From Craspedostauros australis (Eukaryota > Bacillariophyta > Bacillariophyceae > Mastogloiales > Achnanthaceae), in contig JAMXDE010000003.1 in NCBI GenBank assembly GCA_026770025.1, forward strand, positions 744,001-808,000: a DNA stretch of 64,000 nucleotides, read 5' to 3'. The notes below the pieces were generated by a model. It saw only the letters and a program-made list of their open reading frames with translations, had not been told where the DNA came from and made no database searches. Both the position numbers and the translations under genes were made by a program. Shown here in pieces: positions 2-62,092 of the stretch (within the stretch, counting starts at the first letter, position 1; every line of letters starts with the position of its first letter).

Positions 2-1126
2 CGGTTCAAGGTCCAGCACGTCAAGGGGCATGCGGACGCACGGGCGAACCACCAGTTGTCGGACTGGGAGGTTCTCAATGTCGTGGCGGATCACGAGGCC
101 GGCAGACATTGGCGGGCCATCGACCAAGCCCAATCGTGGGGCTCGGTCTCCGGGGCGCCACAGTCAGCGGGCTGGGTAGTTGCAGACCTCAGCGGGCCAG
201 TTTCAGAGGCCAGCTACGAGGCCGTCTCCCAAGCGGCGGCAACTCAGGGCCTGCGCAACAAGTGGCGCCAGCGCTGGGGGTCCGCCGCAAGCCACGCAGT
301 CGATTGGAGGCCCATGATGAGGGCGTCGTCCCGATGGAGAGGCGGCCAGCAACGGGCCATCCTCAAGTTGGCGTCCGGGAACGCGGCGTCCGGCAGGAAC
401 ATGTGCCGGCGTGGGCAGTCTGCCTCCGGGGCCTGCCCCAGGTGCGGGGCCGTCGAAGACAATTGGCATGTGGTGCGCTGCCCAAGCGATGACAGCAAGG
501 CCATATGGGAAGACGCAGTTCAACGAATTCGGAAAGTGATCCAGCCTCCTCGGGTCCGACGAGAGGCGGCCCAACTGCTGGTCAAAGCCCTCCGCATCCT
601 CCAGCAAGGCGGCAACCCGCCGCAAGGCATTCGGCGCACGGCGACGCATGGCATTGAGGTGGCGCAGCATGGTGTCGGTTGGGACGGACTTCTTTGGGGA
701 GGGTGGTCCACCGCATGGGAGCAGTTCAGCCCGAATCCGGAGCCAACAGCAGCGCGGAGACGGCCAGTCCACTGGCAGGCTGATGTGACTCACGAGCTGT
801 GGCTCATGATCCTTCAGCAGTGGACGTCCAGGAACCGCCAGCTGCATGAGGATGGAACGCGCAGCCTGATGGCCCAACGCATGGAGTCGTACTCCACGGC
901 GCTAAGGGAGCTCCCGCTCGCCTCGCTTCCGGTGCATCTTCGCCAGATCGCACAGCAGGTGCCAAGCACGACGCCCAAGAAGGCAGAGTGGCTGCTCGTG
1001 ATGCTCCATGCCATGCCTCACGTGGCCGACACCATCCCCCCAACGCAAGTGGCATGGCTGAGGCGCGCTGTGTCAGAATCCCACCAGTCCGGGCGGCCCG
1101 CCTCGTCGGCAGCCCCGCCTTGCTAG
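2..1126 (+). CDS. C-terminal end of a reverse transcriptase / RNase H retroelement protein (partial)
   Basis: The frame is open from the left edge to a TAG at 1126, so the start lies outside the window. The first 30 residues read like the end of an RNase H domain (HVKGHAD, then LNVVADHEA, the usual His and final Asp context). About 110 residues on is a Cys-x2-Cys...His-x4-Cys zinc-binding motif (CPRCG...WHVVRC) as found after the RT of many non-LTR-like elements. A long Trp-rich tail follows with no domain I recognise. The stretch is far richer in G+C than the DNA to its right and codes with C/G-ended codons, so it may be a transferred or recently inserted element. RNase H plus zinc motif is what I see; the element class is inferred. 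Confidence 0.6.
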   Translation, partial: RFKVQHVKGHADARANHQLSDWEVLNVVADHEAGRHWRAIDQAQSWGSVSGAPQSAGWVVADLSGPVSEASYEAVSQAAATQGLRNKWRQRWGSAASHAVDWRPMMRASSRWRGGQQRAILKLASGNAASGRNMCRRGQSASGACPRCGAVEDNWHVVRCPSDDSKAIWEDAVQRIRKVIQPPRVRREAAQLLVKALRILQQGGNPPQGIRRTATHGIEVAQHGVGWDGLLWGGWSTAWEQFSPNPEPTAARRRPVHWQADVTHELWLMILQQWTSRNRQLHEDGTRSLMAQRMESYSTALRELPLASLPVHLRQIAQQVPSTTPKKAEWLLVMLHAMPHVADTIPPTQVAWLRRAVSESHQSGRPASSAAPPC

Positions 1127-1199
1127 CTTGCATACGCCGCGGCTCGACAGCGCCACCCGGCCAGCATCGCGACACGAACAGGCTCCGACTGCACGACCT

Positions 1200-1958
1200 C
1201 TACTTTATCCGTTCCCGCTGTATGATACATGCAGAATAAACGAGGCGGTACAAAAGCGCCATCGGCGCATAGGTAAAACTATAGTCTATGTGACACAACA
1301 ACAACATGCCTCCCATCAGTTGGGGTTGTAGAATCAGCTTGCTGAAATCTGGATGAGTGAACATATTTTTCTCATTTTCAGCTGCCATTCTCATTGCTGC
1401 ATCCGTCAACACCAAGCAGTTGTGTTGATCGGCGCATATCAACGCATTTATCATGGTGTTCTCTTCGAGATGTTTGCGGGCCAACTCCGCTTCAAGAACA
1501 AGCTTGAGTCGCCAGAAGCCGAACTCATTGGCCACAAGGATCAGCTGTTGCAGACCATCCTGTCCAGTGTGGGTAGGGGTTGGCTGGTGAGAGGCATATG
1601 CATCGTGGTGAGCGCTGGTGTGAGCGCCGATGTGAGCGCCGACGCGAGCAGCAGCGTTGTCACGAACGCTGTCATGAAAGGATATCTTGGCTGTGCAGAT
1701 GCATTGGAGGACGTATCAGACGTGTTTGGGTTGTAGGTTGAGAAGAGGGACGGTCACTTGCATGGGGGCTGCGCCATCTTCGGCGCCATCATTCGCGTGC
1801 TGATGTTGGATTCCTTTGCCGATCAGTGTCTCAATGGATGGGACGGTGATCATGAAGACTTCGGAGTTTGTCTTGATTGGTTGTTGTCGGTCGTCCTGTC
1901 CACATACGAAGATGGTGTCTGCCCTGTTCTCAGGTTGGAAGGATCTGAGCTGTCTTCT
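1200..1958 (-). pseudogene. BTB/POZ-BACK domain, continuation of the ankyrin gene, broken by TGA
   Basis: Read in the frame whose codons end at positions divisible by 3, the minus strand below 1958 gives a BTB-like core (ADTIFVCGQDD, then SEVFMITVPSIETLI). A TGA lies at 1716-1718, followed by YVLQCICTAKISF, a His-rich insertion (GAHIGAHTSAHHD), and a BACK-like helical part (LVANEFGFWRLKLVLEAELA, ALICADQHNC). The part ends at the TAG at 1200-1202. The TGA sits where BTB proteins often have Arg before the YIYT-type segment, so CGA to TGA is likely. The ankyrin and BTB frames differ by one base near 1940-1961. An unrecognised intron is possible, but no convincing GT/AG pair removes both lesions. 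BTB domains usually dimerise or recruit Cullin-3 ligases; that role is inferred. Confidence 0.55.
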
Positions 1959-3346
1959 TCAATGTTGATTTTGGTCCTCTTGTGACTGCTGTGTTTGTGT
2001 TCATTCTCTTGCTTCTTTCGCTTCAACTGCTGTCCCAACTGTTCTTGTGGCTGTTCATTCTCTTGCTCGTTTTGTTGTAAGCGTTGCTGCAGTTGTTGCA
2101 GTTGTGGGTGGACTGAAGGCGAAAGTCCTCTGATGAGGGACTCCATACACTCCAGCTTGCCGTTCATGCATGCCCAATGAAGGGGAGTGTTGCCATAGTT
2201 GTTTTTGCAGTTGATGTCCGCCCCACATGATTCGATGAGGTACTTGATACACTCCAGGTGGCCTTCCCAGCATGCGTGATGAAGGGGAGTGAAACCATCG
2301 TTGTCTTTGCAGTTGGCATTCGCCCCACATGATTCGATGAGGTACTCCACACACTCCAGGCGGCCGTTGTAGCATGCATCATGAAGGGGAGTGAAACCAT
2401 TGTTGGTTTTGCAGTTGGCATTTGCCTCACATGATTCAATGAGGTACTCCACACACTCCAGGTGGCTGCTGCGGCATGCCCAATGAAGGGGAGTGGAACC
2501 ATTGTTGGTTTTGCAATTGATGTCCGCCTCACATGATTCGATGAGGTACTTCACACACTCCAGCTTGCCGTTGTGGCATGCCCAATGAAGGGGAGTGGAA
2601 CCATCATTGGTTTTGCAGTTGATGTCCGCCTCACATGATTCGATGAGGTACTTGACAGACTCCAGCTGGCCGTTCATGCATGCCCGATGAAGGGGAGTGT
2701 AACCATCATGGTCTTTGCAGTTGATGTTCGCCTCACATGATTCGATGAGGTACTTCACACACTCCAGCTGGCCGTTGCGGCATGCGTGATGAAGGGGAGT
2801 GGAACCATTGTTGGTTTTGCAATTGACGTTCGCCTCACATGATTCGATGAGATACTTCACACACTCCAGCTTGCCGTTGTGGCATGCCCAATGAAGGGGA
2901 GTGGAACCATCATTGGTTTTGCAGTTGATGTCCGCCTCACATGATTCGATGAGGTACTTGACAGACTCCAGCTGGCCGTTCATGCATGCCCGATGAAGGG
3001 GAGTGTAACTATCATGGTCTTTGCAGTTGATGTTCGCCTCACATGATTCGATGAGGTACTTCACACACTCCAGCTGGCCGTTGCGGCATGCGTGATGAAG
3101 GGGAGTGATACCATTGTTGTTTTGGCAGTTGACGTTCGCCTCACATGATTCGATGAGATACTTCACACACTCCAGCTGGCCTTCGTAGCATGCCAAATGA
3201 AGGGGAGTGATACGTCCCCTGCCTGTAACCATGTTGACATCAACGCCTTCATTCTGCGTCTTGTTCTGCTTCTTCCATTGCTTCAACACCGACAAGTCAC
3301 CTGCCCAGGCAGCACCAAGGAATTGTTCATTCGTGACATTCGGCAT
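1850..3346 (-). CDS. Ankyrin-repeat protein with Gln-rich coiled-coil tail (first part of an ankyrin-BTB gene)
   Basis: The start is the ATG at 3344-3346 (MPNVTNEQF), giving 498 residues; upstream in-frame sequence lacks another ATG. A short helical N-terminus is followed by 11 consecutive ankyrin repeats of exactly 34 residues (consensus TPLHxAC.NGxLECVKYLIESC.A). A Gln/Glu-rich coiled coil (LQQLQQRLQQ) and a basic cluster (KRKK, HKRTK) follow, possibly nuclear-targeting. Ankyrin stacks bind proteins; no catalytic residues are visible. The end of the frame overlaps, in another frame, DNA that reads as the start of a BTB domain (1200-1958). The stop at 1850 therefore probably reflects a frameshift, and the original protein was ankyrin plus BTB. 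The ankyrin part is confident; whether the gene is still functional is doubtful. Confidence 0.8.
   Translation of the reverse strand: MPNVTNEQFLGAAWAGDLSVLKQWKKQNKTQNEGVDVNMVTGRGRITPLHLACYEGQLECVKYLIESCEANVNCQNNNGITPLHHACRNGQLECVKYLIESCEANINCKDHDSYTPLHRACMNGQLESVKYLIESCEADINCKTNDGSTPLHWACHNGKLECVKYLIESCEANVNCKTNNGSTPLHHACRNGQLECVKYLIESCEANINCKDHDGYTPLHRACMNGQLESVKYLIESCEADINCKTNDGSTPLHWACHNGKLECVKYLIESCEADINCKTNNGSTPLHWACRSSHLECVEYLIESCEANANCKTNNGFTPLHDACYNGRLECVEYLIESCGANANCKDNDGFTPLHHACWEGHLECIKYLIESCGADINCKNNYGNTPLHWACMNGKLECMESLIRGLSPSVHPQLQQLQQRLQQNEQENEQPQEQLGQQLKRKKQENEHKHSSHKRTKINIEEDSSDPSNLRTGQTPSSYVDRTTDNNQSRQTPKSS
2501..3112 (-). repeat. Tandem duplication of a 306-bp block of three ankyrin repeats
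   Basis: Ankyrin repeats 2-4 (about 2807-3112) and 5-7 (about 2501-2806) have the same order of repeat types (HHACRNGQ, HRACMNGQ, HWACHNGK) and differ at only a few bases. The unit is 306 bp, three 34-residue repeats. This is a recent in-frame expansion of the array. Confidence 0.8.
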
Positions 3347-3572
3347 GTTGAGAGGATGGTTGATGGTTGATGGTTGGTGGTCTTTTGGCGTTGGATTGGC
3401 TGTCAAGGAAGTGTGTAGTCTGAGCTATCTACTATGAGGCAGAGATATCGATGGTGTGTCTTCAATAGCTTGTATTAGTATAATATGAGTACTATGCACC
3501 GTGTGATGAATGTGAGTGGCAATTCGATGTCTGTTGTTGATGTGCTCGAGTGTGGGGTTGTGTGGTGTGTTG

Positions 3573-3616
3573 TTGCTGTCTTGTTGCTGTCTTGTTGCTG
3601 TCTTGTTGCTGTCTTG
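3573..3616. repeat. 11-bp tandem repeat TTGCTGTCTTG, four copies
   Basis: Four consecutive copies of TTGCTGTCTTG lie about 230 bp upstream of the ankyrin start codon. The rest of 3347-3767 is T-rich on the plus strand with a short CT run near 3691 and contains no supported gene; it is probably the ankyrin promoter region. Confidence 0.7.
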
Positions 3617-3769
3617 TTCGCACGTGTCCTCTCTTTCTCTCTTTGCGCACAAGCATCGTCGTGTTTGCCTCCTTCTCTTGATCGCACCCCTCTCTCTCTC
3701 TCTGGTTCGTGCGGCTTGGATCCTCCTGTTCCCATCCATCACGAGTATGTACTACTACTTCTACGACTA

Positions 3770-5616
3770 GTGTCTCGTGGCTTGAGTGGAGGCCAATTTT
3801 TTTGGTAACCATTGGTAACAATTGGTAACTAGTCGCATGAGTCAATTTTGACGTAGACGCTGGTACATTTTGTACGTCAGTCCCACGCAAACCGGCCCCA
3901 AAACCACCATTTTTGACACAAACCTCCTCGGCAAGTCCATGCCGCTCCGTTTTTTTGGGCTCTCCTTTGGTGAGCACTCTCATGTGTGGCTTGTAATCAC
4001 ACACTCCAACTTTAGTGGCGATTGGTTGGGTAGTGGTCGAGATCTGTTTGTTTCTTTGGAGCAGGAACTCGTTGATCCCATTCACGAATGCCAATCACCG
4101 CGATGTATCGTGGCGAATTTCTGTGTGCCCCAGCGCGTGTTAACACGCGGTGGAAATGATCACAAAACATTGTGGTGCCAACCATTGTGTTCTTCACATG
4201 CTATGATCAGTTCCTTATATCCTGATATCATCCATTGCGACTTCGTTCATCGTAAAACATTGTAATTGTTTGTGGTTGATTACTTCTGCAATAGCGTTTT
4301 AGTTCTACTCCAGAATTCCGTACACCAGCAACCGTCTTGGCAACAGCAACTTGGATGCATGTGTATCGTTGCGCCCATCCTGCTTGGGAGAGCAATGATC
4401 CCTTGGTTAGCAGCAGTACACAAGAGCAGTCCAGAATAGAGCAGAGTCGACTGTTTGACATCGAGGAGTCCAATCTCGCCATGCTCTGATCGCTCTTCTT
4501 TGGATCTTCCGCATCGCTGAGCATGTGCAACTGCGCCGCGCACAATTTCCACTTGGTGTGAGCACATGCTAGCATATATCGCGTGCGCAATGTAGATGCC
4601 AGTGTTCGATTGGCCTTAGCGGCGCTCAAGACCAGTGTAGAACATCAGGCAACCTCTACAGAACGGTTCGAATGCGGTTTGATAGAGCACGAACAGCGAC
4701 TGCGTCAACGACCCCACCCATCGCATGAGCGCAGGATAGGTGGCTAGTCTTCGCGAGAGTGTAGCAACCAGTGCCAATGAAGACAGTTGTGGCGCGTAGT
4801 CAGGAAGCGATGTTTCCTCGGGAGGATAGTACGCGGTAAAGTGACGAAAAGAACTTGCAATTGATAGATCTTTGGAGGAACTGAGGTTCGAAGACCAAGA
4901 CTACATGGGCGGATTCAGGAGAGGATAATTCGTCTATTGAAAGCAACGGCACGATGATCCGACATCAGCGCGAGGCACAACCTTGCATCAAGTAGAGAGA
5001 CTCAGGTGAGCAGCACAGTACGAATCTACAACACGTAAAAACGCACGATAATGTTTGGCGCCAAGTTTTGTGCGTTCACGGATCGATGATCATGGCTGTC
5101 ACGAGCATTAGTGACTGACTTCAAACACCCAAGACAACACACAAAAGCAATCTGGACCGCTGACCAGCACACCACCCGAAGCAGAATGAAGTGACGAATA
5201 CAGCCATGCCATTCACTTGAGCAATAGACGAAACAGAATTGGATGCGGGTCTTTGGAAGACGGTTGATCGAGATTGGACGAAGAAGCACCAAATTTCTGT
5301 ACCAGAACGTCGTAGACTCTACGCGGTTACCAATGGTTACCAACGAAAAAATACCAAAATCACGTCCGTACGTCGTCCGTATGAAAAAGGCCGATAAAGG
5401 GTAAAAAGAGGCATCAAGATGAACATCAAGCGGAGACCGTTTGCCAACAATGAAGACATCAACAGATAGCTCTCACTCTCCTCTTTCTAATTATGCAAAG
5501 ATGTCGGTCAACGGCCATCAACTCATCGAATGGTTGCTTGTGCCGTCGGCGATATGCCAATGGTTACCAATAGTTACCAATAATTACCAAAAAACCGGAA
5601 ATTAGCCACGAGACAC
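3770..5616. mobile_element. TIR DNA element with TA flanks and subterminal GGTAAC repeats
   Basis: The ends are inverted: GTGTCTCGTGGCT at 3770 and its complement ending at 5616, each flanked by TA (3768-3769 and 5617-5618). Just inside each end are two to three copies of a GGTAACNATT-type repeat in inverted orientation (about 3794-3828 and 5554-5598), with another pair near 5328-5342. TA duplication plus short TIR fits the Tc1/mariner type. The interior has only short minus-strand frames (for example 4228-4629) that I cannot match to a transposase, so the element looks non-autonomous or degraded. Ends seen directly; superfamily inferred. Confidence 0.55.
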
Positions 5617-5618
5617 TA

Positions 5619-7496
5619 GTAGTACATGAACAACAACAAGAAGGAAGACAACAGAGGGTTCTGACAACAACAGGGTTCTGTTGTGTGGCATTGTCGAAAC
5701 GAGAATCTTCGACTGATACGACTATGAGTCAGATCACCAAAGAAGATCAATGACTGTGTTGACATCTGTCGAAGCACAACGAATGCGAAAGATCGTTGAT
5801 GGTGACACCCAAGTGGTTCGAAATGGTCGTTGGGTGTTTCCATTGGTCTGAACGGTCTTTCGGCCTTGAGTCTGCCTCCAACAACTCGACTTCAGTCACA
5901 ATCAACACCACATCAATTCGAAGCAAACAATGTGAAAGTCTTCGGAGGCAGAGATACAGAGAGACAGAGACAGAGGAAGCTGTTCTCACCACCACCACCA
6001 TGTGCACCATGACCCACACTTTCTTGCGTCATCGTGGCATCTGCAAGACTGTTGACTCTCGTCCGCCTGCCATCGCAAGCACCAACTCGAGGTGTGAAGC
6101 AATGCCCCGAACAACGATGAAGCCACCGATGTGACTGCCTTTGTTGATTTCGACCCATCTCAGTTGGATTTGGCCGGTTGCCATCCCACCGCATCGCAAG
6201 CATCACCATCTGCACAGTCAACAAGAGTCCTCAACATCAAACCAGCACCCGACCAACACCACATGCATATTGGGATGGGTTGACACGTTCAGCAATCAAC
6301 AGGCGGAGCGATACCGTGCCTCCTCCAATGTTCCTGCCGCACGGACCACCAACATATGATACCATGCGCGTTCTATCCATAGGCAGAAGCGCCATCGTCT
6401 TGGCTCGTGATTTCCAAAGCATTCATGCTCAACCGAGGCGATCGACAGGAACATCCGCCTCACAAATGAAGTTGGGAGCACCACGAAGGAGGACATGCGG
6501 GTGTACGGTGCGCACATGGGCCATGGATTGCTGACCGCGTGCTTCTTGTACCATACGGAACTCTGTGTCAGCCATGATCCGCAATATGGTACTTGCACTC
6601 TGCATGGGGTTGCTTGTTGGTTGGTTGGTTTCTTCTTTTGCTCGTCAAGCTCTCTGGATGCTTGGACTGCGCTGGCTCGTCGGTTCTTGTTTTTCCACCA
6701 CGCTGGCACTGCTCGCTTCGAAGATTGGAATGGATGGTGCCCTGGCATGTGTTGCTATAACAGTGAGTGATCGCTCCTTCTAGGACTTGGCAAGGCTCTC
6801 CACTTCAGTTTTGGCACAATGGTGGGAGTGCAACTCATGGAGAGACGAGGACAATAGCGTGATACGAGACGGTCGATGCAACCGTGTACCAACCATTCTC
6901 CTCGTGGCTTCTCATTATTTTCCTCTGCCTTGTTCGCCATGTGGTCTTCGTAGATCGCCTCTTCCAGAAACTTGGATTGGCTGGCATCGGCACTGTCGCT
7001 TTGCATCTGCTTGGTAGTGTGACTTGGAGTAGAGAGTGCTCTGTGTGTGAATCCGGTGGCACAGTGACGATGGCATGGCTTGTGAAAATGCTGCTGTCAT
7101 GCGTCCTTTGTCTGCGCAACGAACCAACAACGATGCTGATGGCAGAGTGCGGATGGAACCACAGATGTCCAATCTGCTCATGAATGACATCAGCAACATC
7201 CGTCTGTGCGTATGTATCGTAGAGAGCAGACCAGACTCGTGGTAGACGAGGCAGAGGCAGCCTAGGAGCAGTATCCAGCCCTTCAATCTCTTGGAACATC
7301 TGGTGACTTCATCACAGCGTTTTATTGCACGGGCAGATCTAGTACATGCGGTACTGTTCCAAACATACATAGAGAAGTACAGTCTATTCGTATGTATCTT
7401 ACATTACCGGGACGTGGATCTACCATACCTCTATGAGTATGATACAAATACGGAGCGGCCCCTCCATCTCATTCCATCCCATCGTGTCGTGATGCA
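5619..7496. other. Region without a confident gene; weak hydrophobic frame 6574-6783 (+)
   Basis: No frame here has a recognisable domain. The best candidate is a plus-strand ATG frame at 6574 (69 residues, two hydrophobic stretches such as MVLALCMGLLVGWLV). It is followed by a GTGAGT that could be a splice donor near 6761 and another hydrophobic stretch near 6960-7020 (KLGLAGIGTVALHLLG). These could be exons of a small membrane protein, but antisense frames are equally long, so I do not call a gene. Confidence 0.3.
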
Positions 7497-50342: not shown

Positions 50343-53300
50343 TATCCGTGAAAGGGCGCCACAGGTATTGGCGAAAGAGTCGCAACCAAGGACACAACAG
50401 ATCCCAGATCTCATGAGTGAAACTCTTGCCCCTCCAATGCCAGTCTCAGAGGGAGCCGACAGGCAAATGTCTCCGACAGAGGGAGCTACCAATGAGTCTC
50501 CGGTACCTGATCCCACTATAGAGTCATCGGACCAGCGAACACTTCAACCGCAATTGAGTTCACCTCTCCGAGAGTCGCCAATTTCAGAACTGGCAACTCC
50601 ATTACCACCTCCAGCTCCGACGCCAATTGATACCAGCTCCACGCCACCCATGATGCCTAAGTCTGAGCCAACGCCAACAAGACCTCGAAGCACGAGAAGT
50701 CGCAAACAACCAAAGCGATTCACGTACGCGCGTATGGGAGGCAAAGCAGCCTGGTTGGACGACGAAGACACCGATGATTACTACTTTTGCCCCGCAGTAG
50801 CTACCTTGGAAGAAATTGAACAGGCAGCAATACCCAGGGAGTCGCACCCCGATTCGTCATCGATCATCACATTCTCACAAACTGTCGTCGATTGCTTACA
50901 TACAATCGAACCTCTCCAACGCGAAGGCAGCGACTCTCTCTCCATCGATCTACACCAATTCAAGGTGGACGCTCACTACTTGTTGCGCAGACTTCGAGTT
51001 CGATTCAATATGTTGAATCCACAACCAACCAACATTGCTCTTCCAACATTCGCCCCAAAGCCGGCTGAAGCAGGAGAAGCAAGCATCAACATGGCCGACT
51101 AGGGCAACTGGACCCCAACAACATGACCGAGGAAGGAGCAACTCCATTCCAGGAGACGTACAACAACTTCCACTCGGACATGGAGGATCACTTCGAGAAA
51201 GACCTCAACAGTGTCTTTCTCAACGAAGACCTCCTCCGACTGGCCACTGACCACGCCGTTGAGCAATTCGTGGAGAAGCTGAGTACCTTCATCAGCACAG
51301 GCACGATGGAACCCCGCTTCGACGCTCTCGACTTCATGTCCAAGGCCAAATCAGGACCATGGTACTATCAAGATCCTGAGCACTTGATGAACCAAGGGTA
51401 CCTTCCACCCAAATCTGCGTACAGCGCAGAAGCGTTCGTCCAAAGAACTCGCTCCGTGTGGAACGCGATGATCGAAAATCATCACTACCGACTTGCATTC
51501 GAGCTACTCCGTCGCCAAGTAATGACGATCCGACCAGGACCGTGGCTACGTCCAAGCGAATATGAGATTGAGCAATTCGTCCAAGGCATGATTGAGTCGA
51601 ACACGGCGCCACTCACTTCGGCCCCAGCGACTCGCTCTGCCAATCAAGGATCCATGCTCGACATCGACTCGTCATCCACGCTTGACATCAATCCATCATT
51701 CATTCTCGATACAGCGAAGTGCATTCCACCAACCACATGGGCGAACATCGAGCAGCATGCTTACTCTGTCGCAATCATCGAGCCACAGAAGGATGCAACA
51801 AACTTCCCCACCTACGTCGATAATCGCATGATCAGCTACTTCGCCGCAGGTGGCGACTTGGATATCGCCGAACGCACCTCGGTGTACAAGGCATCCAACA
51901 CCGACCCAGACACTCTCTCCTTCGACGAAGCCATTCGCGATGACAACAAGGACGAGTGGATGCAAGCCGCCGAAAAGGAGATTCGGGATCTAACGGAAAA
52001 AGAAACGTGGGAGGAAGTGAAGAAGATCGACGTCGTCAACGATCGCATCTTTCCGGGAACCTGGGTCTTTCGCCGTAAGCGCCTCCCCGACGGAACCATC
52101 AAGAAATACAAGGGACGCTGGTGTTGCCGTGGAGACCTCATGAATGAGGACGCCTCCACCTACGCACCAGTCGTCGCTTGGTCATCCGTCCGCATCTTCC
52201 TCAGCACTTCCATCGTCATGGGCTGGGCAACAACGTCCATCGACTTCACGAACGCATTCGTGCAAGCATCCATCCACAAGCCTGTGTACCTTCATCTCCC
52301 TCGCGGATTCAAGTCAACAAAGGGCCCTGACACCTGCCTCAAGCTCCGCAAGAGCTTGTACGGCTTGACGATTGCTCCTCGCCTCTGGTACGAACACCTG
52401 ATTCGAGCTCTCACTACGATCGGCTTCAAGGCCTGCGACCAAGAGCAGTGCTTGTTCATCAAACAAGACATCATGATCGTCCTCTACGTTGACGACGCGG
52501 GCATCGCCTCCAAGACCAAGCAAGCCGCCGACGACTTTATCAAGTCAATGCGCGATCTCGGCTTCAAGCTCACCCAAGAAGGAAGCTTCAACGAGTTCCT
52601 GGGAATCGAGCTCAGCCGTGACCCAAAAGCAGACACGGTCCATCTCCGCCAGCCAGGATTGATCAAAAAGATCCTCGCCACCACGAAAATGGCGAACTGC
52701 AGTCCGTGCCCCGTACCAACTACGCAGCTCGCACTTGGACAGTGCAAGGATGAGCCACCCATGAACGAACCATGGAACTACCGCTCCGTCGTCGGCATGT
52801 TGCTGTATCTCATGACCAACACTCGCCCTGACCTAGCGTTCGCAGTTTCCCAAGTCGCTCGCTTCGGAAGCGACCCTCGCCGCTCACACGCGAAGGCCAT
52901 CAAGCGCATCATGCGCTATCTCAAGCACACTGAGGACAAGGGCACCATCGTGCATCCCACCGGGCAGCTCGATCTCAAGTGCTACGTGGATGCAGACTTC
53001 GCAGGGCTCTACGGACGAGAAGACAACAAGGACCCCGTCTCCGTCAAGTCGCGCACCGGCTACCTCATCACATTGGGAGGGTGCCCCCTCATTTGGAAGT
53101 CCAAACTCCAAACTGAGATTGCTCTATCCACGATGGAGTCCGAGTACGCCGCTCTCTCTCTCTGGCAATGCGCACGTTGATCCCCATCCAACAGCTCATC
53201 CGCCAAGTCATCAACAATGCAGGCACCAACATGCCGCTGCACACCAACCTCCAGTGCACTGTTTTTGAGGACAACCAAGCTTGCATCTCCCTTGCCACCA

Positions 53301-54434: not shown

Positions 54435-57394
54435 CATATTCAAAGGTTTTCTGAAGTCGTATGGGTCGATCCCCATGAAATTCCTAGTTGTTTCGCAGAA
54501 AGTTCGATCATGTTCTCATGCATTTATCGTATGGTATCCAATCATGGAATAGACGCCGGGATTGTCGTTCGTTTGGTACGCGTTAAATACACGTTAGCAT
54601 CTGCGACATGATCTCACATTTTGCTCGTCACAAAACACATCACACAAAACACATCACACAAAACACATCACACATCATCGGCATCTGTTCACAAATTCAG
54701 GCATCATCGCCACACTTTCGCTCCATTTCGCAACTTTCTTCGCCAATGTCATGTGTACTCTCTGTTGTGTTCCATGCTTGTGCTCGCCCTAGTAGTGTAG
54801 TAGTAGTAATAGTTGCTGTGGCTGTCAATGAATGGTGGCCTTTCATCCCATGCTCTCCTCTCCTCACTTCGTCTCAGACCTGTGCAGATCATCACATCCG
54901 ACCAAATAGCAACTACACTCTCCACCAACAATTCCACCATGTTTCCCTCTGCTGCTACCAAGGACCTCTCCAAGGATGGCAACCCCTCCCCCAGTAAGAA
55001 ACCACGTTCTCTTTGCCCTGTATCTCCTCCCTTCAATTCGAGGGGGTTCCTGCTGCCAACTGCGGAGCAACTGTTGCCTGACAAGCCCTCTGCTACGTTG
55101 AGGAAGCCGAGCATCATCACGCAAGTGATTGATGTGAAGCCGATGCTTGCAGCAGAGGGCAGCCTCGTCCCGAACAGTACGCATGCGCACGCTCGCGAGC
55201 TGCATGTGTACGTTCACATCCTCGACAACAACGGAGGCGTCTTCGACGACTCCAATGTCAGGGTGCGTTCGGAGGGACGAGGTGTCGGCGATTGTACGTC
55301 GGTGAGCGTTATCGTGAACGCGCCACCCCCGCCTGCTACAGCTGATGTTGCACCACCTGTCGAGCCTGCCCCACCGGCGAGGCTTCCTCGTCGCTGCAAT
55401 GCTGTTGTTGCTGGTGTCTACGCAGACACCTCCAACGACAGCGACACCACCTACGACGACAACGACAGGGGTGAACGAACGCGCGCCAGCAGGAACAGGA
55501 GAGGAGGTCAGTTCGGGTTTGATCCGGAAGAGGCGGGAAACTGGAGGCGCGATGCCATTGTTCGTGTCATGGCAGTGCTTGGATCTAACCTAGATCCTGA
55601 ACTGTTGTACCACATGCCCAAAACAGGATTCGTTCTTGACAGCAACGGTGATAGGACAACATGGTGGAACTTGACACGCGTGTGGGTCACTGTGGCTACT
55701 GCACTCTGGGGTGTCTTGCTCCCTCAGGAGGAGTTGCCAACTCGTCAGATGAAACAGGTGGTGGAGTTTGTCCGCGCTCGCGTGGACCTGCCGCCGCCTG
55801 CACTCGGTTCAAATCTGTACACCCTGTGTGTGAGGGGGGAAAAGACAATTGCTAACGTGGCGAAAGCCGTTCTCGCTGCATCTACTTCATGCAACAACGT
55901 CACTGCAATCCTGTCTCGTCATGTGGAAATCATGCCAGAGGAACAACGTGTTCGTGTCGCACCCGCACGCGCCACTAACACTAGGAGTCAACTAACAACG
56001 TTGCGACGCGCCTTCGACATATTCAGCTGTGGCGGAATCATTCCGCCCAAGGTTCTACAGTATCGTGTGCGTGCTTGCAATCTGTCTGGTGTGACGTCGT
56101 TTCTCATGACCACCACTACGTACAAGGCAGGGTTGAGTCACACGGTACAGTTTGGAGGTGTCAAATTTGAAAATGTCCCCGTGTTCGATCGCGGAAGCAC
56201 GACCATCGAACAACTATTCGGCATGTACTCATCCACGACCAACAACCCAGTGGGAATGCCCGCTTTCACCCTCATCACTAACCTACTCACACGCAAAAGC
56301 AAGATCAAGACGGGCCTCTCTTCCTTCGAAAGCTACTTCTGGATGGCGACGGAGAAACTCAAACAGGCGATTTCGCGCCTAGTAGACCTACTGAAGGCTA
56401 AGTATGAAACAGACGGGGAGGAACAAAACAATGCCAATGACGAGAGCGACAACCACAACGACGAGCCAGATGACGTCATCGCACCACATGTGCGCACAGC
56501 CGATTCCCTCTTGCATGCACTCGAACTGCTTGTTGTGTTCCTCAAATGGGAATTCACCGCCTCCCACATGCAGCTTCAGTGTGACGATCCCATGCATTCG
56601 GCTGCGTTCGCACTCATCACAGGAAAGGAGAAGAAGGCAACAACCACATCAACCAATCAACGCACCAACAAGCACAAGCGCAAGAAGACCACCTCTGTCA
56701 CAAACAACACTCCAAACATCACAAATGACAATTCTCCCACCACTACAAATGACCAACCCTGTAAAGTATGCAACCGTTGTGGCGCAGCAATGCGATTTGT
56801 GGATGATCGTTTTGTCCCTTTCGTTGAAATGCTTAAGGACAACGAACTCGCAGAACACAAGGACGAATTGCAATCCATGCTTGCAGCGGCACCGGGATTC
56901 GCCAACGAAATTGTTAACTACATGGCTCACAAAGTGCGTGCCAAAGTGCAATTCCGACAAATCGCTTTTTATCAATCTGAGCTCAATGATAAGCCTGAAA
57001 GAGCCTATGTGGTACTCGACCATAAGCAAAAAATTCTACCAACAGGCCAAGGCGAAGCCCAACAAGAATATTGGGGAAAAAAGGGAATGTCACTGCTTGG
57101 GGCAATGGTCATCACGTGTCGCAACGACATTTTTACTTATCGGTTCATTGACATTGTGGTCGATGGAAGACCGACACAAGACACACTTCAAGTTGGTGGA
57201 CTGCTGGAGATCGTGCAAAAAAAGGTCAAAGACATTCATCCATCCGTGACTGAAATCATCCTACAGAGCGATAACGCGTGTTGCTTTGCCAGTCACGAGC
57301 ACATCGCGCTCATCACGTCCAAACTCAACAAGAACCTTGCGACACGAAACGCGGCCAAAATCATCCTGTGGATCTACACGGAGGCCCAAACCGG

Positions 57395-57600
57395 TATTAG
57401 AGCACTATCGAAAAATCACAAGGGGTGAGCAAAAGCAAAGTACCATGCCGGGATTCGAACCCGGAACCTCAGTTAGAATTACTGGTGCTCTACCGTTGAG
57501 CTACAGGCGATGCGATTGCTGATCCGAACACAAGTGAAATTTATAGATAGTGGGGGCTACGGGAGTAACGTACTTAGCACTATTCGATTTTGTGCTGATA
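57395..57600. repeat. Left 206-bp terminal repeat of the miniature element
   Basis: Base-for-base the same as 57,852-58,057 on reading both. Holds a minus-strand tRNA-like sequence with Pol III A and B boxes. Confidence 0.85.
57441..57510 (-). tRNA. tRNA-like sequence in the left terminal repeat (probably not a functional tRNA)
   Basis: On the minus strand: D arm TA-GCTC-AACGGTA-GAGC, T arm CCGGG-TTCGAAT-CCCGG (perfect), and a four-pair anticodon stem CAGT/ACTG. The A box TAGCTCAACGG and B box GGTTCGAATCC fit Pol III promoters. The anticodon loop AATTCTA lacks T33, and the acceptor stem (TCGCCTG against CATGGTA) pairs poorly. It is therefore a tRNA-derived promoter module or pseudo-tRNA; the amino acid cannot be assigned. 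Confidence 0.5.
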
Positions 57601-57851
57601 CTCCCCTACGCTACGACCGTCGGACCACCTGCTCATGAGCACTATGACGATTATTCGTTTTCTCCCGCGTCTCCCCATCTCGGGGCACCCTCATTGCTGG
57701 GTGGCTAATACTGCCAGACGAAGTGGGAGTGCTGCCGTAGCAGACAAGTGTGAGACTGGGTCGAAATCCGGTGATCGCAACGCGCCCACGAAGGCGTGTT
57801 GTGCAAGGTTGTCCTAACTCAGCGATGTAGAACTAGCTGCGACTGTTAATC

Positions 57852-58057
57852 TATTAGAGCACTATCGAAAAATCACAAGGGGTGAGCAAAAGCAAAGTAC
57901 CATGCCGGGATTCGAACCCGGAACCTCAGTTAGAATTACTGGTGCTCTACCGTTGAGCTACAGGCGATGCGATTGCTGATCCGAACACAAGTGAAATTTA
58001 TAGATAGTGGGGGCTACGGGAGTAACGTACTTAGCACTATTCGATTTTGTGCTGATA
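57852..58057. repeat. Right 206-bp terminal repeat of the miniature element
   Basis: Identical to the left repeat, followed by the duplicated target ACCGG. The internal 57,601-57,851 lacks a clear primer site or purine tract; it contains GGGTCGAAATCCGG, a weak B-box-like motif on the plus strand. Confidence 0.85.
57898..57967 (-). tRNA. tRNA-like sequence in the right terminal repeat (probably not a functional tRNA)
   Basis: Identical copy of the tRNA-like segment at 57,441-57,510, with the same intact D and T arms and the same defects in the anticodon loop and acceptor stem. Confidence 0.5.
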
Positions 58058-59150
58058 ACCGGTAAGAGCATGCTGGACACCCACTTCGCGTACATCACCC
58101 GTGTACTGCGAAAATACGTGCAAAGTGGCAAGGACATCAAGACCCCTTTCCAAGTCTTCCTCGCGCTCCAAGCCGGCAGCATCGCAGGGACGACCACGGT
58201 ACTTGCCAACGCGTCGTCCCTCCAAGGCAACATCACCACGCTTCCTGGCGCACCAAAAAGACGATTCCGCGCGAATGGGCAACAGGTACGTCAAACTCAC
58301 GAGGTGAAGTATGATGATGACCAGGCGCGGTTGGTGGCTGCATCTGGTATCACGGAAGACGTCGTGGTCAAGAGCGCTGAATGGGAAGGGTGGACCATCA
58401 ACAAGTTGGGTGTCGTCCCTGCCGATTCGCACACGTCCGACAAGCTGCCGATCACGTCCGAATCGTCCAGGAAAACGGACAAGACGCGCAAAATGGGGCG
58501 CACAGCAACAGAGAGCAAGGCGTTCGCGATTGGCAAAGCCCTCCAAGACGGACAACAACATCTACCATCCGATCACACCACAGCACTACAAGACCAGACC
58601 GCGGAAACCGAACACCCACCACTCGCAGTGCCAGGTTGGGCAAGCAAAACAACACGGACCAACGCCAAACTACCAGACTACATTGCGGACAAGTTGAAGG
58701 ACATCTGTGAAGCGTCCGCGAAGGACCCAAAAAACAGGCCATCGGAGCACGAAGCACACGAGAAACTGATGAACAACGCAAGAACCAAAACTGACTGGTA
58801 CGTGCAACTGCACGCAAATCCCATGCGTGTCAAATCGTCGCTGTTTGCGGCGTACAGTGCCAAACAACGCAAAGAAAAGAAGGAGGCTGCCCTCATCAAG
58901 ACAGAAACCACCACAACACCAACCACCACCACCAACACAACAAGCACAGCAACAGCATCTGTAATCGTGGCGGCCCCCAATGCGCCAGCTGCAACAGAGG
59001 AGGAACGAATCGAAGAGGAGTTGCAGAGAGAGGAAGAGGAATTGGAGAATCAGAGGTGGTGTGATGCTCACACAGTGAAGGCGAATGCAGAAAGTGAGGC
59101 TGTGTTGGATGATGATGGCACAAAAATTTTGTGAGGGGTGTGCATCACCG

Positions 59151-60988: not shown

Positions 60989-61060
60989 TAATGAATCGAA
61001 CATAATTTGTCCACGTACGAGTCCGAACACCCGAAAAGCACACGATCGTGTTTCCTCACA

Positions 61061-61680
61061 GATCCTCACAGATCCTCACAGATCCTCACAGATCCTCACA
61101 GATCCTCACAGATCCTCACAGATCCTCACAGATCCTCACAGATCCTCACAGATCCTCACAGATCCTCACAGATCCTCACAGATCCTCACAGATCCTCACA
61201 GATCCTCACAGATCCTCACAGATCCTCACAGATCCTCACAGATCCTCACAGATCCTCACAGATCCTCACAGATCCTCACAGATCCTCACAGATCCTCACA
61301 GATCCTCACAGATCCTCACAGATCCTCACAGATCCTCACAGATCCTCACAGATCCTCACAGATCCTCACAGATCCTCACAGATCCTCACAGATCCTCACA
61401 GATCCTCACAGATCCTCACAGATCCTCACAGATCCTCACAGATCCTCACAGATCCTCACAGATCCTCACAGATCCTCACAGATCCTCACAGATCCTCACA
61501 GATCCTCACAGATCCTCACAGATCCTCACAGATCCTCACAGATCCTCACAGATCCTCACAGATCCTCACAGATCCTCACAGATCCTCACAGATCCTCACA
61601 GATCCTCACAGATCCTCACAGATCCTCACAGATCCTCACAGATCCTCACAGATCCTCACAGATCCTCACAGATCCTCACA
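61061..61680. repeat. Minisatellite GATCCTCACA, 62 perfect tandem copies
   Basis: 620 bp of the 10-mer without a visible variant, preceded by a partial unit (TTTCCTCACA). A unit not divisible by three gives a 30-bp, ten-residue periodicity, so plus frames stay open by chance. It adjoins the left boundary of the ATPase duplication at about 61,705. Confidence 0.97.
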
Positions 61681-61704
61681 GAAAGGCTCCCAATCATTCC
61701 TTCG

Positions 61705-62092
61705 AACTATGCATTTGCGTACGAGCTTGGTGCAGCCCCTGGCCTCGCCTGGAGCTGCCCTCGCCCGTAGCTGCCTTCGCCAATCCTCTAAAGAGAGCCA
61801 ATTCTAACGCAGCACATGGCAATAGTACCATACACTCTTTGCATCTTTCTACTCCAGAGTAATACCAGAATTGCGGAATGGCATCCTCTGCGGTTGTGCG
61901 ATGGTGTGCAATGTGCAATACTCTATACTGTGCTGTACGCGTATTCATCGATGTAATGTCATGTAATGGCATGTAATGTATGTCAGGGTGTGGTATGTGG
62001 TGTGGTATGTGGTGACGGCGCAACGTGCTCATTGTTGGCAGCAGCCTACTCGTACGAGCACTTCGGTTGCTCGGGCTGTCTCGAGGCCGCTC
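61705..62092. repeat. 3' flank of ATPase copy 2 (duplicate of 10,015-10,450)
   Basis: Matches the copy 1 flank from ACTATGCATTT onward, but with the TACTG array reduced and one TGTGGTATG repeat duplicated near 61,990-62,010. Confidence 0.85.

Follow-up and report, generated by a model that had tools for sequence, protein, structure and literature searches.

The window analysed here, a stretch of 64,000 nucleotides from the diatom Craspedostauros australis, contains a short element that is bounded by direct repeats and carries a tRNA-like sequence in each repeat. Consistent with a diatom host, a RuBisCO large subunit encoded on contig C90 of the assembly has as its best solved relatives 7yk5, 5mz2, 5n9z, 5oya and 6ftl (1049-1072 bits; next 926), which are diatom enzymes. 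This locus raises three questions: what class of mobile element it belongs to, which RNA polymerase transcribes it, and whose proteins copy and insert it. All of its directional features lie on the minus strand (tRNA-like module, primer site and polypurine tract among them), so that the left-hand repeat is the 3' LTR in the sense of the element, which we refer to as the mini-element. Its features, in window positions, are as follows.

57395-58057, minus strand: mini-element (TRIM), whole, 663 bp
57390..57394, no strand: target-site duplication ACCGG, copy 1
58058..58062, no strand: target-site duplication ACCGG, copy 2
57852..58057, minus strand: 5' LTR in element sense, TATCAGCAC...CTCTAATA, 206 bp
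57395..57600, minus strand: 3' LTR, identical to the 5' LTR
57601..57851, minus strand: internal region, non-coding, 251 bp
57838..57851, minus strand: primer-binding site, 14 nt, GATTAACAGTCGCA, complementary to nuclear tRNA-Asn(GTT), to about nucleotide 40
57601..57608, minus strand: polypurine tract TAGGGGAG, adjoining the 3' LTR
57903..57962 (5' LTR) and 57446..57505 (3' LTR), minus strand: tRNA-like core (D, anticodon and T arms)
57950..57960 (5' LTR) and 57493-57503 (3' LTR), minus strand: A box TAGCTCAACGG
57908..57918 (5' LTR) and 57451-57461 (3' LTR), minus strand: B box GGTTCGAATCC
57997..58002 (5' LTR) and 57540-57545 (3' LTR), minus strand: TATAAA, starting 42 bp ahead of the A box start
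57888..57891 (5' LTR) and 57431-57434 (3' LTR), minus strand: TTTT, the first Pol III-terminator-like run past the tRNA-like core
57868-57872 (5' LTR) and 57411-57415 (3' LTR), minus strand: TTTTT, after the TTTT

The outline given by the first-pass annotation was confirmed on several points. The two repeats (57395-57600 versus 57852-58057) are identical at 206/206 bases, ACCGG stands at both ends of the 663 bp, and the longest stop-free stretch in the six frames is 73 codons, in agreement with the claim that the element has no coding capacity. The tRNA-like D and T arms, with A and B boxes, that it had seen in each repeat were recovered by Rfam as tRNA (RF00005; 35.4 bits per repeat against a gathering score of 29; minus strand, model positions 6-65 of 71), with both arms complete and the acceptor stem incomplete. 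ARAGORN called zero tRNA genes in the window. Because its acceptor stem is incomplete, we describe the LTR module as tRNA-like and not as a tRNA gene. When the core was compared with 21 tRNA genes, the top alignment score was that of tRNA-Arg(TCT) (53/69 aligned positions), and tRNA-Thr(AGT) scored below it (53/66 aligned positions). In the sense of the LTR, TATAAA begins at position 56, the A box at 98, the B box at 140, TTTT at 167 and TTTTT at 186. The element is shorter than 1000 bp, has two LTRs and no coding sequence, and has a primer-binding site past the 5' LTR and a polypurine tract ahead of the 3' LTR, as TRIMs do; its LTRs contain tRNA-like sequence with an A box of the form TRGCY...YGG and the B box GGTTC, as in the Helenus group of TRIMs.

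A search of the assembly (74.8 Mb, 90 contigs), which the first-pass annotation had proposed for the 206-bp repeat, recovered full copies, solo LTRs and 5-bp duplications. Of 115 candidates 40 were scored, and one further copy equalled the window element over all 663 bases; the 251-bp internal region had 21 genome matches. Two LTR patterns, one at the beginning of the tRNA-like module and one in a U3 stretch, matched 109 and 117 sites, respectively, with ≤3 mismatches, and the reversed-pattern control matched 0 sites at the same threshold. Together, the multiple copies and the empty control show that the mini-element is not a chance arrangement. We examined 86 loci, window included, from among the matches listed: 20 had two LTRs, 64 had one LTR without an internal region in the fetched piece, and two were of other kinds (L028, which is old and showed one LTR, and L155, without a long LTR match). 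Exact 5-bp duplications, a fixed length of the kind that TRIMs have, bordered 20/20 two-LTR copies, and all 20 lay in different flanks. Among the 64 solo-LTR loci, 48 had an exact 5-bp duplication, 4 matched with a one-base shift and 12 had none, some of the latter being truncated and one (L148) being the LTR of a hybrid element on contig C14 that is described below. Some solo loci share flanks and are thus duplicated loci; the 48 exact ones reduced to 41 distinct 8+8-base flanks. An LTR subfamily comprising L022-L025 and many solo LTRs ends in CTCTTTCA rather than CTCTAATA, and is often less similar to the window LTR.

The insertion in the window could also be compared with empty sites. Five paralogous sites without the element, fetched out of 40 scored paralogous places, matched the joined flanks at 95, 95, 95, 93 and 93 of 95 bases and held ACCGG once. 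The window copy sits in multi-copy sequence (its right flank had 40 scored copies at 90-100% identity, among 200 candidates) and splits a reading frame of that sequence into window positions 54813-57428 and 58007-59134, neither part of which matched Pfam. Another copy, L027 on C13, contains, at 945-6353 of the locus, an insert of ~5.4 kb with an 851-aa ORF, an HMDEKWF motif and 31-nt inverted arms. The ORF had no Pfam match. This locus does look nested, with the insert inside a mini-element copy, and the insert, by its resemblance, is perhaps a mariner-like transposon.

The first-pass annotation had left room for a composite MITE, in which the element would consist of a pair of 206-bp units that resemble DNA transposons and have weak inverted ends. 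Both ends do read TAT(C/T)AG inward, and units that stand alone with their own duplication (48 exact among 64) outnumber the two-LTR copies, which is the result that was said to favour a MITE. The numbers were as foreseen (64 solo against 20 two-LTR loci among the 86); the conclusion drawn from them does not follow, since solo LTRs, which are expected from LTR-LTR recombination, also keep the duplication. Against a composite MITE, the primer site and polypurine tract fall exactly at the junctions and are common to Copia elements, whereas a MITE would have DNA transposon ends without these or any other signature of reverse transcription, and the full copies carry one and the same internal region. 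Furthermore, LTR variants are common within an element and mostly not between elements. The LTR pairs were identical in 16/20 two-LTR copies, with the remaining four differing at 1, 2, 6 and 8 positions; between elements, the LTRs differed on average at 4.5 positions, and 5.2% of 308 comparisons were identical (308 equal-length pairs of 380 possible, the 72 of unequal length having been dropped). We therefore rejected the composite MITE, which we consider extremely improbable. On this evidence, the mini-element belongs to the LTR elements and not to the MITEs, and its sense strand is the minus strand.

An LTR element needs a primer, and the primer site pointed to a particular tRNA. GATTAACAGTCGCA is the reverse complement of TGCGACTGTTAATC, which was found in 5/5 fetched nuclear tRNA-Asn(GTT) loci, their identity being confirmed by ARAGORN. 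The 14-nt match falls in the anticodon region, and the 5' part of the tRNA up to the match is 40 nt as cut by ARAGORN. Drosophila Copia and Ty5 are known to be primed from the anticodon loop, according to work cited by Kojima 2024 (PMC10886601). The idea that the tRNA-like module might serve as the element's own primer was unsupported: the longest exact complement in the LTR to the first 18 internal bases is 5 nt.

The same signals occur in larger elements of the genome. The Copia family that is present in locus L026 (see below) has a 709-bp LTR that is widespread in the genome (212 candidates, of which 40 were scored). In 6/6 Copia elements with both ends fetched, the LTR starts with TATCAAC and ends with GATTATCA, the same 14-nt primer site follows, TATAGGGGAG stands ahead of the 3' LTR and the insertion is flanked by 5-bp duplications. 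Thus, primer-binding site, polypurine tract, terminal bases and duplication length are all common to the mini-element and to an autonomous element of the same genome. An 1819-aa ORF is open in all three Copia copies read (two whole elements and the copy in L026), and that of L026 matches RVT_2 (6.1e-23). The first-pass annotation had held that a longer coding relative would mark the mini-element as a deleted LTR element. Such Copia relatives were indeed found, but only signals are shared: the LTR and internal region of the mini-element had no match at E 1e-10 in the two whole Copia elements (L160, L161), and it is therefore not a simple deletion product of them. Rfam matches on L026 up to E 1 consisted of two tRNA matches in the mini-element LTRs, with none in the Copia LTR. 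The mini-element appears to make use of the machinery of these larger Copia retrotransposons. In the window itself, a 685-aa ORF at 51123-53180 (RVT_2, 2.8e-39) represents another Copia-type fragment, and 61007-61807 is a long tandem repeat that can be read as TDPHRSSQIL units in two frames.

To consider which polymerase might use the LTR promoter, we compared LTR copies across the genome. In copies with an ungapped core, the A-box motif is kept in 95/103 and the B box GGTTCGA..CC in 84/103, which argues for a role of RNA polymerase III. Diversity among 72 distinct LTRs was 0.056 in the core versus 0.086 elsewhere (p 0.016), and at non-CpG positions 0.024 versus 0.084 (p 8e-5), p values that are rough, the rows being related, and a difference that ascertainment favours. 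In the part of the LTR that was unused for copy finding, the core did not differ significantly (0.072 versus 0.094, p 0.57); without CpG positions the values were 0.033 and 0.096 (p 0.036, again rough for related rows). Lower diversity of the tRNA-like module is therefore strong only after CpG columns are removed. The fall in core diversity upon their removal hints at CpG decay in the host.

In isolation, the 60-nt core forms a three-arm fold whose stability is not above that of shuffles (z -0.81), and a 79-nt version (z 0.03) has a best fold that is not a cloverleaf. A candidate compensatory change in the T stem, where pair 44-56 is A-T in 7/40 and G-C in 22/40 distinct cores, was not counted as support, because both sides are CpG sites and decay alone gives it. 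Retention of pairs, at 94% versus 24-41% for slid partners, was likewise set aside as expected from the conservation of one sequence; all 13 pairs are kept in only 18/40 distinct cores.

A different promoter would leave the rest of the system unchanged. In that case the genomic RNA of the same TRIM, with the same Copia helper, would be made by Pol II from TATAAA, and the module would be a captured tRNA or SINE remnant or a structured tRNA-like RNA end. TATAAA starts 42 bp ahead of the A box, and diversity around and after it (0.056 and 0.042), in a stretch part of which was used for finding copies, is about that of the module. In addition, the 5' LTR has two T-runs, TTTT and TTTTT, between the module and the internal region, both of which Pol III would have to read through. 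Retention of the A and B boxes and the low non-CpG diversity of the module speak against Pol II, as does the sense strand of the internal region, which has zero T-runs of four or more, a weak point given that ~0.5 are expected from its T content. We regard transcription by Pol II as possible rather than probable. Use of the LTR module by Pol III is thus plausible as a prediction from sequence, and the two T-runs of the 5' LTR are its difficulty.

Evidence that links the mini-element to Copia more closely came from L026, on contig C40, where an 8.46-kb insertion fuses the two at the primer site. In sense order it consists of a mini-element LTR ending CTCTATCA, the primer site, the Copia internal region and a Copia LTR ending GATTATCA, followed by the complete 251-bp internal region of the mini-element with its primer site, the polypurine tract and a mini-element LTR ending CTCTAATA. 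TCCAG duplications stand on both sides, and the outer LTRs agree at all but 2 of 206 positions. A nested Copia does not account for this structure: nesting brings two LTRs and a duplication of its own, and one Copia LTR is present. The flanks of the fusion resemble nearby window sequence at 79-82%.

This order of parts would result if reverse transcription changed templates at the shared primer site, from mini-element RNA to Copia RNA. Minus-strand DNA made on the mini-element RNA would reach the primer site and, by way of the 14 nt common to both, continue on Copia RNA. The Copia U5 and R would then be copied, followed by a jump to the Copia 3' end, and synthesis would run to the Copia primer site and a few bases into U5. 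Finally, plus-strand DNA with the mini-element LTR would anneal at the Copia primer site. The ATCA end of the 5' LTR in L026 may be a trace of those few Copia U5 bases, against which stands a solo mini-element LTR with the same end (L097, see below).

DNA recombination, for example between a TRIM and a one-LTR Copia circle at their 14-bp primer sites, might by reasoning yield the same order of parts, and the fusion would then be no proof of co-packaging. One fully resolved case in one assembly is at hand, and both junction patterns are exact at C40 alone. For the left junction (mini-element U5, then other sequence past the primer site), the other 20 matches within 2 mismatches comprised 19 ordinary copies and C14 (2 mismatches); for the right junction (Copia LTR end, then mini-element internal region), the other match, with 3 mismatches, was an ordinary Copia. 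A simple reciprocal crossover, however, is expected to leave one mini-element-type end, whereas both LTR-primer-site junctions end in the Copia-like ATCA; this argument is weak, as the solo mini-element LTR L097 also ends CTCTATCA. The nearly identical outer LTRs and the one shared duplication also argue against recombination, being among the signs of template switching used in passages of Sabot and Schulman 2007 (PMC1950507), namely flanking duplications and similar outer LTRs. We consider an origin by DNA recombination unlikely.

A second hybrid, partly resolved, may extend the template-switch reading to another Copia. In L159 on C14 (268-4221 of the locus), a mini-element-type LTR (94%) gives way, at the primer site, to the internal region of a second Copia family. 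A neighbour copy of this Copia, in L167, shows 95.7% identity to it, beginning immediately ahead of the primer site. By tblastn, the L026 polyprotein is ~50% identical to the second Copia in L167 and 42% in L159. Toward its 3' end, another Copia seems to interrupt L159, which may be a fusion or a Copia carrying a mini-element-type LTR.

The sequence itself shows the LTRs and their identity within most copies, the duplications and empty sites, the primer-binding site and polypurine tract, the Copia elements with the same signals and the fusion insertion; beyond this, we propose a life cycle with Pol III use, half-tRNA priming and co-packaging. Transcription would proceed from the promoter inside the LTR, where the tRNA-like A and B boxes point to RNA polymerase III; the RNA would begin shortly before the A box of the 5' LTR and end at the T-run in the 3' LTR, giving it terminal repeats of an estimated ~85 nt for strand transfer. 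Resident Copia elements would supply the proteins that package and copy this RNA. The primer would be tRNA-Asn, paired through its 5' half with the 14-nt site, the plus strand would start at TAGGGGAG, and Copia integrase would insert the DNA with 5-bp duplications. We hold it very likely that the mini-element is a recently active Helenus-type TRIM with a Pol III-type LTR promoter, copied and inserted by resident Copia proteins. For a more specific version, we lean somewhat toward a Pol III-promoter TRIM, the first in stramenopiles, that rides in particles of at least two Copia families sharing the half-tRNA-Asn primer site, with fused insertions as fossils of co-packaging.

The first-pass annotation had called a tRNA-type element of this kind a new design. 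This did not hold, because tRNA-bearing TRIMs have already been published under the name Helenus, with hosts among fungi and animals and in one plant according to the parts of Kojima 2024 (PMC10886601) drawn on here. By those parts, Helenus elements are likewise TRIMs of <1000 bp in which both LTRs contain tRNA-like sequence, A and B boxes included, and which have a primer-binding site and a polypurine tract; 5-bp duplications occur in fungal and plant Helenus, there are solo LTRs with duplications, and fungal Helenus also have Copia-type anticodon-region primers, once tRNA-Asn. The same paper gives a cross-species match for one fungal family. The mini-element differs in its host, a diatom (stramenopile), and in having a same-genome helper candidate that is fused to it in one insertion. 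The words diatom, stramenopile and oomycete have 0 occurrences in the main text of PMC10886601. Among the matches listed for open-licence full texts (titles and abstract starts), no other paper on tRNA-bearing TRIMs appeared, and no tRNA-bearing TRIM in a diatom was found in open-licence full texts; among papers from 2023 on naming Helenus with TRIM, tRNA and retrotransposon, PMC10886601 was the only one found. Thus, the mini-element is probably the first stramenopile tRNA-bearing TRIM.

The first-pass annotation was right in seeing a miniature element of LTR type whose LTRs each bear a tRNA-type, Pol III-like module, an algal analogue of Cassandra. Like Cassandra, as presented in passages of PMC10886601, it is a TRIM whose LTR carries promoter sequence of a small-RNA, Pol III type. 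Cassandra carries 5S rRNA sequence and inhabits land plants, whereas the mini-element is tRNA-like and algal; and Pol III transcripts have been reported for Cassandra, whereas for the mini-element they are predicted from sequence. For Cassandra, the same passages of Kojima 2024 indicate no autonomous partner. Similar to the C40 fusion, complex insertions in Triticeae (PMC1950507) have three LTRs, flanking 5-bp duplications and similar outer LTRs. The passages concerned name Angela, Squiq and Opie complexes of full-size elements, whereas one part of the C40 fusion is a TRIM and its middle LTR comes from an unrelated Copia. Copia polyproteins in a diatom are familiar from the CoDi elements (Maumus et al. 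2009, PMC2806351); in contrast to the mini-element, no tRNA module is mentioned in the passages of that paper drawn on here, in which "tRNA" has 0 occurrences. What appears to be new here is a same-genome helper candidate for a tRNA-bearing TRIM, supported by a fusion insertion.

These results extend tRNA-bearing TRIMs to a diatom, far from the known fungal, animal and plant hosts, a distance that favours their repeated origin. They also provide a Pol III-type TRIM together with a resident helper candidate, whose 1819-aa frame is open and which a fusion insertion ties to the TRIM. The items shared with Copia are the primer site, the polypurine tract and the terminal bases, so that LTR homology appears not to be needed for trans-mobilisation here, and whether it is needed becomes testable.
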